A stretch of 64,000 bases of DNA from Sandaracinus amylolyticus (GTDB lineage Bacteria; Myxococcota_A; Polyangia; Polyangiales; Sandaracinaceae), in contig NZ_CP011125.1 of assembly GCF_000737325.1 (NCBI RefSeq), positions 10,263,336 to 10,327,335 on the forward strand, given 5' to 3'. The stretch's first letter is position 1, and the number at the start of each line of letters is the position of its first letter. The position numbers and the translations under genes are program-made. Below, one piece after another: positions 20,593 through 53,929 of this stretch. The notes under the pieces are model-generated. The model saw only the letters and a program-made list of their open reading frames with translations, ran no database searches and was not told the DNA's origin.

Positions 20593-20695
20593 CGTGGTTC
20601 ACCTCCCTGTCACGTCCAGACAGCAATCGATGCGCCAGGACGCGCTGCTCGCGGCGCATGCATTGCACCCCTCGAGGCGCACGGAGCTCTTCGAG

Positions 20696-21463
20696 ATGAC
20701 ACAACGCCCCATTCGCGTCGCCGCGGTCGGCGACCTGCACTGTCGCAAGACGTCTGCGGGCACGATCGCGCCGCTCCTCTCGCGCGTGAACGAGCACGCC
20801 GACATGCTGCTGCTCTGCGGCGATCTCACGGACTACGGCACGCCGGAAGAAGCACACGTGCTCGCGAAGGAGCTCGCGGTCGCGCGCGTGCCGATGGCCG
20901 GAGTGCTCGGCAACCACGACTACGAAGGCGGCGCGCAGCAGGAGATCACGAAGATCCTCACCGACGCCGGCGTGCAGATCCTCGACGGCGACGCGATCGA
21001 GATCCACGGCATCGGCATCGCGGGCGTGAAGGGCTTCGTCGGAGGCTTCGGCCGCGGCACGCTCGGCCCGTGGGGCGAGCGCATGATCAAGGCGTTCGTG
21101 CAGGAAGCGATCGACGAGGCGCTCAAGCTCGAGGCGGCGCTGCAGCGCCTGCGCACCGAGCGCCGCATCGCGATCATGCACTACGCGCCGGTGCGCGGGA
21201 CCGTCGAGGGCGAGCCTCCGGAGATCTTCGCGTACTGCGGCTGCGGCCGGCTCGAAGAGCCGCTGCATCGATATCCGGTCGACGTCGTGTTCCACGGCCA
21301 CGCGCACCACGGCTCTCCGACCGCGCGCACGGAGAACGGCATCCCGGTGCACAACGTCGCGCTCCCGCTGATGCGCCGCCTCCACGCCGAGCACCCCGGC
21401 TTCCACGTCGTCGAGCTCGAGCCGCTCCACGAGCCGATCGAAGAGATGCCCCTCGTGCGCTGA
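20696..21463 (+). CDS. Calcineurin-like metallophosphoesterase
   Basis: This 255-residue protein contains the full metallophosphoesterase signature: GDLHCRK, GDLTDYG, GNHDYEG, the MHYAP strand and HGHAHHG, which together bind two metals. It is likely a cytosolic phosphodiesterase or phosphatase; the substrate is unknown. I start it at ATG 20696, directly before PIRVAAVGDLH. An upstream in-frame start at 20594 would add 34 residues of non-conserved character. Divergent from the nucleotidyltransferase gene. Confidence 0.88.
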   Translation: MTQRPIRVAAVGDLHCRKTSAGTIAPLLSRVNEHADMLLLCGDLTDYGTPEEAHVLAKELAVARVPMAGVLGNHDYEGGAQQEITKILTDAGVQILDGDAIEIHGIGIAGVKGFVGGFGRGTLGPWGERMIKAFVQEAIDEALKLEAALQRLRTERRIAIMHYAPVRGTVEGEPPEIFAYCGCGRLEEPLHRYPVDVVFHGHAHHGSPTARTENGIPVHNVALPLMRRLHAEHPGFHVVELEPLHEPIEEMPLVR

Positions 21464-21921: not shown

Positions 21922-22111
21922 GGGCGAGGGTGAGGGGGTCCGGCGCTCTCGTGAGCGCGGGCCGTACGACGCCGACCACAGACTGATCAGGTCGAGCGCG
22001 GCAGAGCGCAACGCGCGCGCCGCGATCGACCCTCCGCCTCCCCCGACGCTCGCGCCGCCGCTGACGAGCAGCCGCGATCACCCCGAGCGCCGGACCCCCT
22101 CACCCTCGCCC
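21922..22111. repeat. 190-bp MITE-like element with perfect 27-bp terminal inverted repeats
   Basis: Bases 21922-21948 (starting GGGCGAGGGTGAGG) are the exact reverse complement of 22085-22111; the match stops abruptly on both sides. The 136-base core encodes nothing recognisable. The right repeat ends 35 bases before the acetate kinase-PduL start codon, so the element lies in its promoter/leader. No target-site duplication is obvious. It may be a non-autonomous transposable element or a dispersed palindromic repeat. Confidence 0.6.
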
Positions 22112-22146: not shown

Positions 22147-23949
22147 ATGCGAGTCCTCGTCGTCAACGTCGGATCGACCTCCGTCAAATACAACCTCTAC
22201 GAGATGGACACCGAGGCGCGCCTCGCCGCCGGGCGCGTCGAGCGCGTCGGCACCGCGGACGCGACGCACATCCACGAGGGCGGCAGCGATCGCATCGACG
22301 GACGCGACGTCACCGGCGCGCTCCGAGCGATCCTCGCGCACCTCACGCGCGAAGGCGGCCCGCTGCCCGATCCCACGGCGCTCGCCGCGGTCGGTCATCG
22401 CGTCGTGCACGGCGGCGAGCAGCTCGTCACGCCCACGCCGGTCGACGAGCGCGCCGAGCGCATCATCGAGGAGTGCGCCGCCTACGCGCCGCTGCACAAC
22501 CCGGTGAACCTCGCGGGGATCCGCGCCGCGCGCGCCGTGTTCTCGCAGGTCCCGCACGTCGCGGTGTTCGACACCGCGTTCCACGCGCAGCTCCCACCGC
22601 ACGCCTACAGCTACGCGATCCCGCACGAGCTCTATCTCGAGAAGGGCATCCGTCGTTACGGCTTCCACGGCCCGAGCCACCAGTACATGGCGCTCTCCGC
22701 GGCCGAGCACCTCGGGACGCACCTCTCGCGCCTCAAGCTCATCACCTGTCATCTCGGCGGCGGCGCGAGCGTGAGCGCGATCGAGCACGGCGTGTCCGTC
22801 GAGACCTCGATGGGCATGACGCCCCTCGAAGGCCTGGTGATGGGCACGCGCGCCGGCGATCTCGACCCCGCGATCCCGATGCTCCTCGCGAAGCAGGGCA
22901 TGGCCGCGGGCGACATCGACGAGCTGCTCAATCGTCGCTCCGGTCTCGCGGGGCTCTCGGGCATCGGCGCCGACTTCCGCGACATCCAGCAGGCCGCGGA
23001 GGGCGGCGATCCTCGCGCGCGCCTCGCGATCGAAGTGTTCGTGCATCGCCTCCGCAAGTACGTCGGCGCGTACGCCGCGACGCTCGGCGGCGCCGACGCG
23101 ATCGTGTTCACCGGCGGCATCGGCGAGAACTCCGCGCTCGTGCGCAGCAAGGTCTGCGAGGGCCTGATCTTCATGGGCGTCGCCCTCGACGAGCGCGCGA
23201 ACGAGACGAAGCGCGCCGCCGATCACGGCGGCATCGTCGAGATTTCCGCGCACCGCGCGCCGACCAAGGTGCTCGTCGTGCGCACCGACGAAGAGCGCAT
23301 GATCGCGCGCGAGGTGATGCGCTGCGTGGTCGGCCCCACCGCGACCATCCGCAGCGTGCGCGCCCGTCCGATCCCGGTCGGCGTGAGCGTGCGCCACGTG
23401 CACCTCTCGCGCGCCGACTGCGACGCGCTCTTCGGTCCCGGCTACGAGCTCACGAAGAAGCGCGACGTCACACAGCCCGGCCAGTACGTCACCCGCGAGA
23501 CCGTCGATCTCGTGGGCCCCAAGGGCGAGATCCGCCGCGTCGCGATCATCAACCCGCTGCGCAAGCAGACGCAGGTCGAGGTCGCGCGCACCGACGCCAT
23601 CACGCTCGGCGTGAGCCCGCCGCTGCGCGAGTCGGGCAAGCTCGAGGGCACGCCGGGCCTCACGCTGCGCGGCCCCGCGGGCTCGGTGGAGATCCCGAGC
23701 GGCGTCATCCTCGCGCATCGCCACGTGCACATGTCGCCCGACGAGGCGCGCGACTTCGGCGTGAACGATCGCGACGTGATCAAGGTGCGCGTCGACGGAG
23801 ATCGCGAGATGACGATGGGCGACGTGATCGTGCGGGTGCACCCCGAGTTCACGCTCGACATGCACGTCGACACCGACGAGGCGAACGCCGCGGGCCTCAC
23901 CAGCGACAGCGTCGTCGCGTTCGAAGGCGTGCAGGAGCCGCGCGAGTAG
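22147..23949 (+). CDS. Acetate kinase-PduL phosphotransacylase fusion
   Basis: This 600-residue protein carries two complete enzymes. Residues 1 to about 395 are acetate/propionate kinase: VVNVGSTSVKYNLYE, GHRVVHGG, YGFHGPSHQY, CHLGGGASV, FTGGIGENS and the usual C-terminal ERMIAREV. Residues about 405-600 are a PduL-type phosphate acyltransferase with its zinc-binding VRHVHLS and LAHRHVHMSPDEA (about residue 523). Together they would convert acyl-CoA to acyl phosphate and then to the acid with ATP formation, or the reverse. Acetate kinase normally ends near residue 400, so this is a genuine fusion without a frameshift. No microcompartment shell genes are nearby. The next gene, 5 bases on, is a GH13 amylase. 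Confidence 0.93.
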   Translation: MRVLVVNVGSTSVKYNLYEMDTEARLAAGRVERVGTADATHIHEGGSDRIDGRDVTGALRAILAHLTREGGPLPDPTALAAVGHRVVHGGEQLVTPTPVDERAERIIEECAAYAPLHNPVNLAGIRAARAVFSQVPHVAVFDTAFHAQLPPHAYSYAIPHELYLEKGIRRYGFHGPSHQYMALSAAEHLGTHLSRLKLITCHLGGGASVSAIEHGVSVETSMGMTPLEGLVMGTRAGDLDPAIPMLLAKQGMAAGDIDELLNRRSGLAGLSGIGADFRDIQQAAEGGDPRARLAIEVFVHRLRKYVGAYAATLGGADAIVFTGGIGENSALVRSKVCEGLIFMGVALDERANETKRAADHGGIVEISAHRAPTKVLVVRTDEERMIAREVMRCVVGPTATIRSVRARPIPVGVSVRHVHLSRADCDALFGPGYELTKKRDVTQPGQYVTRETVDLVGPKGEIRRVAIINPLRKQTQVEVARTDAITLGVSPPLRESGKLEGTPGLTLRGPAGSVEIPSGVILAHRHVHMSPDEARDFGVNDRDVIKVRVDGDREMTMGDVIVRVHPEFTLDMHVDTDEANAAGLTSDSVVAFEGVQEPRE

Positions 23950-23954
23950 GTCGG

Positions 23955-25625
23955 ATGATCCGCCGATCTGCCGTCGCGCTGCTCGCGCTCTGCGCCGCTG
24001 CGTGTGATCCCGATCCCGCTCCGCCCGTCGCGACCCACGTCGACGACTGGCGCGATCGCGTCATCTACCAGATCCTCGTCGACCGCTTCGAAAACGGCGA
24101 TCCGAGCAACGACGACGCCGACGGCATCGCGCCGGTGCCCGGCGATCTCTCGCGCGTGCAGGGCGGCGACTGGCGCGGCGTCGAGGACCGCCTCGACTAC
24201 GTCGCGCGACTCGGCATGAGCGCGATCTGGATCTCGCCGATCGTCGCGAACGTGCCGCGCATCGAGAGCGAGGACGGATACCACGGCTACTGGGCGAGCG
24301 ACTTCACCGCGCACAACCCGCGCTTCGGCACGCTCGAGGAGCTCCAGTCGCTCGTCGCCGCCGCGCACGCGCGCGACATCGTCGTGATCGTCGACATCGT
24401 CACGAACCACGCGGGCCGCGTCTTCGCGTACGACCTCGACCGCGACGGAGCGCTCGATCCCGACGAGGACCTGCCGCCGTATCGACGCGAGGGATACGAC
24501 GCCCCGATCCTCTGGCACGACGGGCCGCTGCGCGTCTTCGCCGCGGACGGCGCGATCGTCGAGCTCGGCCGCGAGCACTTCCACCGCCGCGGCATCGGCA
24601 ACCTCGGCGACTACGAAGAGCGCCGCTACGGCGACTTCCCCACCGGCCTGCGCGACCTCGACACCGCGCGTGACGACGTCGTCGAGGCGATGATCGAGAC
24701 GTACGCGCACTGGATCCTCACGACCGACGTCGACGGCTTCCGCATCGACGCGGTCCCGCACGTCGAGCTCCCGTTCTGGCAGGCGTTCTGCGACGGACTG
24801 CGGCGTCGCCTCGCCGCGCACGGAAAAGAGCGGTTCTTCCTGCTCGGCGAGATCTACGAGGGCGACCCGCGCGAGATCGCGCGTCACACCGCGGAAGGCG
24901 CGCTCGACGCGGGCTTCGACTTCCCCGCGAAGATGACGCTGATCGACGGAGTGATCCTCGGCGGCGCGCCGCCCTCCACTGCGCGCGCCGCGCTCGAGAC
25001 GAACCGCGCGCTGTTCCGCGACGTGCCGCAGCCGCTCGGCATCGGTCTCTCGCCGTGGCAGGCGCGCGTCACGATCGCCGACAACCACGACCTACCGCGC
25101 GTCCGCGCCGAGGTCCCCGACGCGTTCGCCGTGGACCAAGCGCTCGTCGCGATGTTCGTGCTCGATTCGATCCCCGGCATCTACTACGGCACCGAGCAGG
25201 AATTCACCGGACGCTCGCACCACGAGGCGCGCGAGGTGATGTGGGAGTCGGAGTTCCGCGAGGATCTCCCGAGCTTCGCGCTGATCCAGCGCCTCGCCAC
25301 GCTGCGCCGGAACTCGATCGCGCTGCGTCGCGGCACGCTCGTCCTGCGCCACGCGAGCGACGTCGGCGGCATCGAGCTCGAGTCGCCCACGCCCGACGCG
25401 GGCATGCTCGCGTGGGAGCGCACGCACGACGACGAGCGCGTGCTCGTCGGGCTCAACACCCATCCGCTGCAGACGTCGCGCGCCCGCGTCGCGACGAGCT
25501 TTTCGCCCGGCACGGTGCTCGAAGATCGCCTCGGCGGTGCGCTCACGTTCGAGGTCGCGCCCGACGGAACGATCGAGCTCGCGATCCCGCCCCGCGAGTC
25601 GGTGGTGCTGTTCCCGATTCCGTGA
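23955..25625 (+). CDS. GH13 alpha-amylase family lipoprotein
   Basis: This 556-residue protein has a short lipoprotein signal (LLALCAAAC) and then a GH13 barrel. It reads DRVIYQILVDRFENGDPSND, VDIVTNH, nucleophile Asp265 in GFRIDAVPH, Glu299 in LLGEIYEG and Asp379 in ADNHDLPR, plus a C-terminal beta domain. It should cleave alpha-glucans outside the cell. There is no CBM48, unlike the amylase at 15583. It begins 5 bases after the acetate kinase-PduL stop and is probably co-transcribed with it. A hairpin overlaps its stop codon. Confidence 0.92.
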   Translation: MIRRSAVALLALCAAACDPDPAPPVATHVDDWRDRVIYQILVDRFENGDPSNDDADGIAPVPGDLSRVQGGDWRGVEDRLDYVARLGMSAIWISPIVANVPRIESEDGYHGYWASDFTAHNPRFGTLEELQSLVAAAHARDIVVIVDIVTNHAGRVFAYDLDRDGALDPDEDLPPYRREGYDAPILWHDGPLRVFAADGAIVELGREHFHRRGIGNLGDYEERRYGDFPTGLRDLDTARDDVVEAMIETYAHWILTTDVDGFRIDAVPHVELPFWQAFCDGLRRRLAAHGKERFFLLGEIYEGDPREIARHTAEGALDAGFDFPAKMTLIDGVILGGAPPSTARAALETNRALFRDVPQPLGIGLSPWQARVTIADNHDLPRVRAEVPDAFAVDQALVAMFVLDSIPGIYYGTEQEFTGRSHHEAREVMWESEFREDLPSFALIQRLATLRRNSIALRRGTLVLRHASDVGGIELESPTPDAGMLAWERTHDDERVLVGLNTHPLQTSRARVATSFSPGTVLEDRLGGALTFEVAPDGTIELAIPPRESVVLFPIP

Positions 25626-51793: not shown

Positions 51794-52363
51794 GCGACGG
51801 AGCGTACGCCGAGCGCGCGGCGGTCTTCTCCTCGCCGGCAAGCCATCACGTTCGCGCTATCTTCGCGCGCGATGGTGCGTCGTGACGCAGACGAAGGTCG
51901 AGCCGTAGGGCCGACGTCTGCGCGCTGCGCTTCTCCTGCGGGTGAGAGTCCCGCCTCGGTAGGCGCCGGAGCGCCGAGTAGCAGGCCCCGGGCGTCGGGA
52001 GAGATCCCGTCGTCCCGAGCGGGGCGTCGAAAGCCCGTCAGGCAGCGAGAGCTGTGCAGCGGGGAGCAAGATCGCGGGCCGCAACATGAAGTGAAGCCTG
52101 CAGCCTCGTCAGATGAACAATCCGAGAGCCGAGCCGCTCATTTCACGGCGAAGGCCACGCTCGAAGCGTCTGTTCCGGAGCGCGCATCGAGTCTCGGCGG
52201 GGTATGGGGCGCAGCACGCGATCACGGAGAAGCGCGGAACACGAGAGGCCCGTCTGCGCAGCCCTCGTCGGGGCGAAGCGCGCCGTATAAGCCGAAGGCG
52301 AAATCGGCCGCCGCGCAGCGGGAGTCCGAGGGGATCGTAGTACCGCACGGCATCGCCACGGCG

Positions 52364-53815
52364 ATGTCGACGAACGTCGTGCAGAACAACGCGACGGGAG
52401 GGAAGGGTCCCTGGGGCAGTCACGTCGAGGAAGCAGGTAAGCGCGAGGGAATGGCCGGCAGGACCGGACCTAACGACCCCGGCGGCCGTAGGCCGCGCGA
52501 AGAAGTGCGACAACTGCAGAGGCGACTGTGGGTCGCGGCCAAGCGAGCACCTGGAAGACGTTTTCACGCTCTTTATGACCACATCTGGAGGAGTGACGTC
52601 CTTCGGGAAGCGTGGAAGCGAGTCGAGGCGAACAAGGGCGCGGCGGGCGTCGATGGCCGGACGATCGCCGAGGTGAAGCAGTACGGAGTCGAGCGCTTCC
52701 TCGAAGAGCTCGGCGACGCACTGCGGAGCAAGACGTACCGGCCCGAGGTGGTGCTGCGCCGGTACATCCGGAAGGCAGATGGAAGGAAGCGGCCGCTGGG
52801 GATTCCGACGGTCCGGGATCGAGTGGTCCAGATGGCGGCGAAGCTGGTGCTGGAGCCGATCTTCGAGGCGGACTTTCTTCCGTGCTCGTGGGGCTTCCGG
52901 CCGAAGCGGGGCGCGCTGGGTGCGCTGGAGACGCTGAGGAAGCTCGGCGCGAAGGGGCATCACCACGTGCTCGACGCCGACATCCGCGACTACTTCGGGA
53001 GCATCGACCACGACAAGCTGATGAAGCTCGTCGCTCGACGCATCTCGGATCGGCGGATGCTCAAGCTGGTGCGGCAGTGGCTCGAAGCGGGCGTGATGGA
53101 CGGGGGCGTCGTGACTCGCAACGTCGCGGGAACGCCGCAGGGCGGAGTCATCTCTCCGCTGCTCTCGAACATCTACCTGCACGTGCTCGACGTGACGTGG
53201 ATGCGCAGGAGCGCCCCGCCCGGGACGCTGGTGCGCTACGCGGATGACTTCGTCGTGATGTGCAAGACGAAGCGCGAGTGCGAAGAGGCAGAGAGGCGCA
53301 TTCGAGTCATCCTCGGGCGCCTCGGTCTCGAGCTGCATCCGGACAAGACGAGGCGAGTCGAGCTCTACGATGGCAAGCAGGGCTTCGATTTTCTCGGACA
53401 TCACCTGCACAAACGCATGAGCGGAGCGCTGTGGGAGAAGAAAGGCAGACGCCTCTATTTCCTGCATCGCTGGCCGTCCGCGCGCGCGATGAAGCGGGTG
53501 AGACAGCGCGTGAAGGAGCTGACCCCGAGGAGGCGGTGCCACGCGGATCTTCGCGAGGTGATCGCCGATCTCAACCCCGTGCTGCGGGGCTGGGGCAACT
53601 ACTTCCGCACCGGAAATGCCGCCAAGAAATTCAACCAACTCGACAGCTACGTCTGGCGTCGGCTGCGGGACCTGCGCGTGGAGCGCAAGGGCCGGCATCT
53701 GAAGCCGGGGGAGTCGAGCAGGTGGACGCGCGAGTACTTCTGGAGCCTCGGACTTCATCGCCTGCGAGGGACCGTGCAGTACCCCGAGCGAGCCTTCTTC
53801 CGGGAGGTCGCGTAA
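52364..53815 (+). CDS. ltrA: Group II intron reverse transcriptase/maturase
   Basis: About 483 residues. The RT domain carries GIPTVRDRVVQMAAKLVLEPIFE, GTPQGGVISPLLSNIYLH and catalytic YADD. A maturase X domain follows with NPVLRGWGNYFRTGNAAKKFNQLD. No H-N-H endonuclease domain is seen at the C-terminus, so mobility may depend on the RT and host target sites. It helps fold and splice the intron RNA. The start is uncertain because the frame is open upstream; ATG 52364 is chosen and ATG 52451 is possible. Confidence 0.92.
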   Translation: MSTNVVQNNATGGKGPWGSHVEEAGKREGMAGRTGPNDPGGRRPREEVRQLQRRLWVAAKRAPGRRFHALYDHIWRSDVLREAWKRVEANKGAAGVDGRTIAEVKQYGVERFLEELGDALRSKTYRPEVVLRRYIRKADGRKRPLGIPTVRDRVVQMAAKLVLEPIFEADFLPCSWGFRPKRGALGALETLRKLGAKGHHHVLDADIRDYFGSIDHDKLMKLVARRISDRRMLKLVRQWLEAGVMDGGVVTRNVAGTPQGGVISPLLSNIYLHVLDVTWMRRSAPPGTLVRYADDFVVMCKTKRECEEAERRIRVILGRLGLELHPDKTRRVELYDGKQGFDFLGHHLHKRMSGALWEKKGRRLYFLHRWPSARAMKRVRQRVKELTPRRRCHADLREVIADLNPVLRGWGNYFRTGNAAKKFNQLDSYVWRRLRDLRVERKGRHLKPGESSRWTREYFWSLGLHRLRGTVQYPERAFFREVA

Positions 53816-53838
53816 TGCAGCGACTCGAGAGACTGCCC

Positions 53839-53873
53839 GTAAGCCGTGTGCGGGAAATCCGCACGCACGGTTT
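53839..53873 (+). ncRNA. Group II intron domain V
   Basis: The stem AAGCCGTGTGCG / CGCACGCACGGTT with a GAAA-like tetraloop (GGGAAATCC) carries the invariant AGC catalytic triad near its base. This 34-nt hairpin is the most conserved piece of group II introns and fixes the family assignment and strand. Confidence 0.88.
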
Positions 53874-53929
53874 GAACGGGGGTCTTGACCAACCGCCGGC
53901 GCAGGCCGGTAGCAGGTAAGGATCTACCA

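Follow-up and report, generated by a model that had tools for sequence, protein, structure and literature searches.

The analysed window, a stretch of 64,000 nucleotides from the genome of Sandaracinus amylolyticus, encodes a single protein of 600 residues in which an acetate kinase (AckA) runs into a phosphotransacylase of the PduL type. It is a genuine AckA–PduL fusion and, judged from its residues, probably bifunctional, and it is quite likely that it catalyses in the cytosol the reaction acetyl-CoA + phosphate + ADP ↔ acetate + CoA + ATP. The protein belongs to a widespread kind of AckA–PduL fusion which has been in print since 2016. What is new is that in the 56 relatives compared PduL is always fused to the kinase, and that the fusion stands where other genomes have a phosphotransacetylase (Pta) or a phosphoketolase (XFP).

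The fusion protein and its active sites

The gene and its parts are arranged as follows.

22147..23949, + strand: AckA–PduL fusion gene, 600 aa, a stop-free single frame with both Pfam domains above cut-off
22147..23331, + strand: acetate kinase half, residues 1–395 (PF00871 at 3–388)
23332..23370, + strand: linker of 13 residues, 396–408, the stretch separating the two domain matches
23371..23922, + strand: PduL half, residues 409–592 (PF06130 at 410–584; alignment to 5cuo at 409–591)

Both halves are recognized well above the thresholds of their families. Over residues 3–388 the protein matches PF00871 (Acetate_kinase) with 432 bits (Pfam cut-off 22) and its kinase half matches TIGR00016 with 424 bits (NCBIfam cut-off 293.4), while residues 410–584 match PF06130 (PTAC, PduL) with 248 bits (cut-off 25) and the PduL half NF011652 with 256 bits (cut-off 209). 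With PF00871 and PF06130 in one chain the window protein is an Ack–PduL fusion of the type pointed out in 2016. The GC content by codon position, calculated per block of 100 codons, has the pattern of coding DNA over the entire frame including the block with the join. Within its own genome (10,327,335 bases, one contig) the window copy is the only match to the fusion.

A well-studied relative of the kinase half is the stand-alone acetate kinase of Methanosarcina thermophila (1g99, 1tuu), which is 47% identical. All of its catalytic residues N7, S10, S12, K14, R91, H123, D148, H180, R241, G331, and E384 are present, as N7, S10, S12, K14, R85, H117, D142, H174, R235, G324, and E382 in the numbering of the window protein. 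The two enzymes differ at Ser11 (PHOSPHATE1), which is Thr11 in the window protein and Thr in 118 of the best 120 of 7,997 homologues, and at Asn211 (PHOSPHATE2), which is Gly205 and Gly in 119 of the same 120. At the latter position Asn is kept in 101 of 115 members of a second fusion group and in 38 of 44 stand-alone kinases. In the M. thermophila enzyme the exchange Asn211Ala is reported to raise the Km for acetate from 14 to 165 mM and to halve kcat approximately (PMC4390882). As the exchange thus leaves a reduced activity, we take both changes as variant positions and not as grounds for exclusion.

On the PduL side the Rhodopseudomonas palustris protein (5cuo, 5cup) is a fold match of 49% identity with the same zinc ligands and phosphate-binding arginine. 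It is a stand-alone protein that has been investigated as an enzyme of microcompartments, whereas the PduL of the window follows a kinase as the C-terminal part of the same chain. The ligands of the two zinc ions, H48, H50, and E109 and H157, H159, and H204, correspond to H417, H419, and E478 and to H526, H528, and H573, and Arg103 (R. palustris numbering) corresponds to R472. These six ligands, Arg103, Ser127, Gln74, Gln107, and Arg194 are retained in 119 or 120 of the 120 best homologues. Among the CoA contacts Ser45, His204, and Asn211 are retained; Lys70 is changed to Arg, Arg97 to Ala (in 116 of the 120 best homologues), and Leu99 to Ile.

The earlier note, which had been made from the letters alone, described a kinase running without interruption into a PduL with its zinc histidines. 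The stop-free frame, the two domains, and the ligands bear this out, and nearly all catalytic and metal-binding positions of both halves are retained. Both halves thus look active, with clade-wide substitutions close to both substrates, so that the rates or the preferred substrate (propionyl versus acetyl) of the fusion may differ from those of the model enzymes.

A structure predicted with AlphaFold2 from an alignment of 54 rows has a mean pLDDT of 86.8 and a pTM of 0.66; the pLDDT falls below 50 at the linker (398–405) and at 228–237, the kinase loop with Arg235. With such values the model does not fix how the two halves and their sites are placed toward each other. A Foldseek search paired the kinase half with 1g99 and 2iir (47–50% identical) and the PduL half with 5cuo (49%), and confirmed the two known folds with nothing further.

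The fusion stands in place of Pta or phosphoketolase

Acetate kinase usually acts together with a separate Pta or PduL. In the whole genome of S. amylolyticus the only match to PF01515 (24.1 bits) is PlsX, which matches PF02504 with 283 bits, PF03894 finds no phosphoketolase, and the single match to PF06130 lies within the fusion. As these family searches yielded no Pta, no phosphoketolase, and no second PduL, the fusion is the only candidate phosphotransacetylase of its genome.

The same picture is found in the 56 relatives. PF06130 occurs in 18 of these genomes, and in 18 of 18 it lies inside the fusion gene. XFP occurs in eight genomes. By sequence the PF01515 matches divide into Pta (AAA_26–DRTGG–PTA) and malic enzyme, with PlsX as a further class in the own genome; representatives of these classes were scanned with Pfam, and the remaining matches of the fusion genomes were assigned to malic enzyme because they cluster with one scanned representative. 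All 11 genomes which have a stand-alone AckA only possess Pta (G019, G024 at a contig end, G038, G040, G047, and G050) or XFP (G018, G023, G026, G034, G040, and G046), and in eight of the 11 the gene adjoins the kinase gene. Among the fusion genomes only two of 18 have either: G016 has Pta, and G002 has XFP adjoining a second kinase. The difference between 11/11 and 2/18 gives a Fisher p of 2e-6, a value that ignores kinship and gaps in draft genomes. The pta–ackA and xfp–ackA pairs of other Myxococcota likewise combine a maker of acetyl phosphate with acetate kinase, but they consist of two proteins and use Pta or phosphoketolase instead of PduL. Beyond the relatives, 19 further loci with a stand-alone kinase from the phylum comprise nine with a Pta-like match and one with an XFP match within about 3 kb, and nine with neither, some of the last nine being cut by contig ends, so that these loci give no clear case for the same rule; in one of the nine without a match (L116) the frame of a kinase with a cyclic-nucleotide (cNMP) domain runs off the contig end.

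Likely reaction and its direction

We suggest that the PduL half with its two zinc ions would convert acetyl-CoA to acetyl phosphate, and that the kinase half would transfer the phosphate of acetyl phosphate to ADP. With both sites on a single chain less acetyl phosphate might be released. The net direction probably leans to the formation of acetate and ATP, because Gly occupies the position of Asn211 and the reported exchange of Asn211, to Ala and in another enzyme, raises the Km for acetate.

That the fusion works mainly in reverse, activating acetate (or propionate) as acyl-CoA so that it can be assimilated, is possible but rather unlikely. The Ack/PduL pathway is described as reversible (PMC4784909), and an aerobic life is described for the myxobacteria apart from Anaeromyxobacter (PMC5010890), so that fermentation is no obvious need. 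A search of plasmids found fused copies in Polaromonas (L231) and Paracoccus (L232), one between fabI and a DUF3141 gene and the other near a phasin gene; these neighbours hint at a polyhydroxyalkanoate setting and may mean a supply of acyl-CoA. On the other hand, the change of Asn211 to Gly is expected, by extrapolation, to weaken acetate binding, and the fusion is adjoined by no widely conserved neighbour of any kind. Clustering of the genes around the window fusion and 20 others (the fusion itself being called in 20 of the 21 regions, as the gene caller missed L058) gave no neighbour cluster present in more than four of the 21.

The immediate neighbours of the gene in the window are as follows.

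20630..21463, + strand: calcineurin-like phosphoesterase (PF00149), upstream neighbour, also in the congener G002
23955..25625, + strand: alpha-amylase (PF00128), downstream neighbour, with a lipoprotein-like start by eye

The earlier note had taken the nearby exported amylase as a hint to a route from starch to acetate. The amylase and the gap of five bases between the end of the fusion and its ATG (23955) are as described, and this amylase follows the fusion in each of the three genomes sampled from the genus (in G002 with an overlap of four bases, if the called TTG start is right). However, a tblastn comparison with flanks of up to 1.5 kb, some shorter where a contig ends, did not find it at the other 40 of 43 loci, so that the arrangement is confined to the genus. 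As 16 alpha-amylases have been reported for S. amylolyticus (PMC5010890), one amylase as neighbour says little for a dedicated route from starch to acetate. A scan for promoters and terminators yielded nothing above chance. Upstream of the fusion there is a perfect inverted repeat of 27 nt (21922–21948 and 22085–22111) with arms 136 nt apart, which stops 35 bases before the start of the gene. A core of 19 bases occurs in exact form nowhere else in the genome than in the two arms, and a congener (L044) has similar arms at the corresponding place. A group II intron with matches to RF02003 and RF00029 lies at 51936–53898 on the + strand of the window, with a frame at 52823–53815 that by eye resembles a reverse transcriptase.

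A role in a microcompartment is not indicated. A PduL of such organelles would have an encapsulation peptide and shell genes in its genome; here the kinase precedes the PduL half, which therefore has no N-terminal encapsulation peptide, and the shell family PF00936 has no match in the whole genome, so that the absence of microcompartment genes noted earlier for the surroundings holds genome-wide. Nine of the 18 fusion genomes among the relatives do have shell genes, but every time on a different contig from the fusion, and the two are thus probably unlinked. Five genomes (G011, G013, G027, G028, and G033, the last with a single weak match) have shell matches yet no PF06130; their microcompartments would need another phosphotransacylase or none.

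Variants of the module

In 11 proteins of four phyla a cyclic-nucleotide-binding domain (PF00027, all above cut-off) precedes AckA–PduL: six from Myxococcota, one of which is a MAG close to two others, two from Thermodesulfobacteriota, one from Nitrospirota, and two from Pseudomonadota (L025, L027, L029, L090, L091, L156, L157, L158, L160, L161, and L163). The frame of L156, for example, has 781 aa. This form is possibly a gated acetate module; we found no description of it in the open-licence PMC literature.

Among the short PduL proteins closest to that of the window are some with CBS domains and others, about 261 residues long, which are extended at the N-terminus. The former (P0296–P0300) carry CBS domains (PF00571) next to PduL and no kinase. 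Of 34 such extensions compared, 12 match a profile of the first 110 residues of the kinase with 9.0 to 28.7 bits, the best of 1700 shuffles reaching 8.7, and the top three matches fall on profile positions 2–37. The extensions resembling the kinase start are those of P0283–P0288, P0290–P0294, and P0302, P0286 being from Kofleriaceae. Short PduLs of this kind seem to have lost their kinase, with some of them keeping a remnant. Such an apparent decay is what could be expected if one half of the fusion were inactive and now had only a structural or regulatory role. For the window protein this is very improbable, as it and the close homologues listed keep almost every catalytic position in both halves, and a bifunctional enzyme is the better explanation.

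A more far-reaching idea, which we consider doubtful, is that the fusion keeps acetyl phosphate off the free pool and that the module, switched by sensor domains, would act as an acetate/ATP valve gated by second messengers or by the energy state. It is based on the finding that PduL hardly ever occurs without the kinase in the sampled Myxococcota, and on the variants with a cNMP domain before kinase and PduL or with CBS domains on a PduL lacking the kinase. If true, two-component systems would be spared cross-talk from acetyl phosphate. The fusion offers a natural single-chain pair for asking whether fusing limits the release of acetyl phosphate, and the proteins with Gly for Asn211, with a cNMP domain, and without the kinase are natural variants for comparison. 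Most worth following are the cNMP-bearing form and the replacement of Pta or XFP by the fusion.

Distribution, prior description, and origin

The fusion is neither a product of the assembly nor rare. The congener G002 has a full-length copy of 98% identity without a stop, which rules out that two genes were merged by a sequencing error, and with matches across the join in at least 105 of the 377 Myxococcota genomes sampled (some copies being shortened by contig ends and weaker matches lying beyond those listed) an assembly or sequencing artefact at this place, a worry of the earlier note, is hardly conceivable. Stops are listed for G037, G387, and G289 in this sample, of which the first two were cleared and the last stands as listed. 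The 56 relatives contain 18 fused copies, that of G002 and others of 83–50% identity; in the two rows with a listed stop, G037 and G052, the loci have both halves in one stop-free frame. Among the matches listed in the Myxococcota sample there are 109 PduL loci in 107 genomes, and 106 of the 109 are fused. Of the other three, that of G324 and the second of two in G227 are stand-alone, and in G218 the kinase and the PduL both end at contig ends. Of 7,997 homologues scored for the window protein, the top 120 (query included) all have both domains.

Fusions in one frame also occur in at least five phyla beyond Myxococcota, namely Bacteroidota (Neolewinella agarilytica and others), Pseudomonadota, Thermodesulfobacteriota, Nitrospirota, and Spirochaetota, the last being truncated at a contig end. 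In Caldalkalibacillus mannanilyticus the kinase and PduL genes are adjacent yet separate, and in a Sinorhizobium plasmid copy the annotation splits the fusion into two pieces. The count of lineages which the earlier note had called for thus shows the architecture in several phyla and contradicts its view that the fusion is uncommon: PduL usually takes this form in the sampled Myxococcota, and the fusion is no curiosity.

Nor had it gone unnoticed. Erbilgin et al. (2016, PMC4784909) pointed out that PF06130 in multidomain proteins is found mostly in proteins annotated as Ack, and proposed the same idea as the earlier note, that fusion may aid channelling. Their fusions resemble that of the window in the Ack annotation and in having no encapsulation peptide; the section on these fusions lists no organisms and describes neither residues nor partners nor an assay. 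The clade of the window is marked by Gly at the position of Asn211 and by Ala at that of Arg97. The possibility raised beforehand that the fusion is common and already characterized therefore applies in its first half, as the fusion is common and known in print, whereas we found no characterized AckA–PduL fusion in the open-licence PMC literature. As all listed full-length copies bear kinase names at NCBI, the phosphotransacylase half is hidden in the annotation. Metabolic models which rely on a pta gene would overlook the acetate metabolism of many fusion genomes.

Two independent fusion events were suspected but not upheld, as the AU test does not speak against a tree that unites all fusions in a single clade (p 0.572, without the three long rows L158, L162, and P0346). 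The suspicion came from the stand-alone PduLs, which are as close to the PduL half of the window (53–58% identical) as members of the second fusion group are (52–57%), and in the PduL tree the two fusion groups are set apart by starred branches. In the kinase tree all fusions fall within one cluster of 62 rows which includes four stand-alone kinases (support 89). The trees, which are unrooted, are compatible with one or two origins, and a single fusion followed by later losses is the simpler reading.
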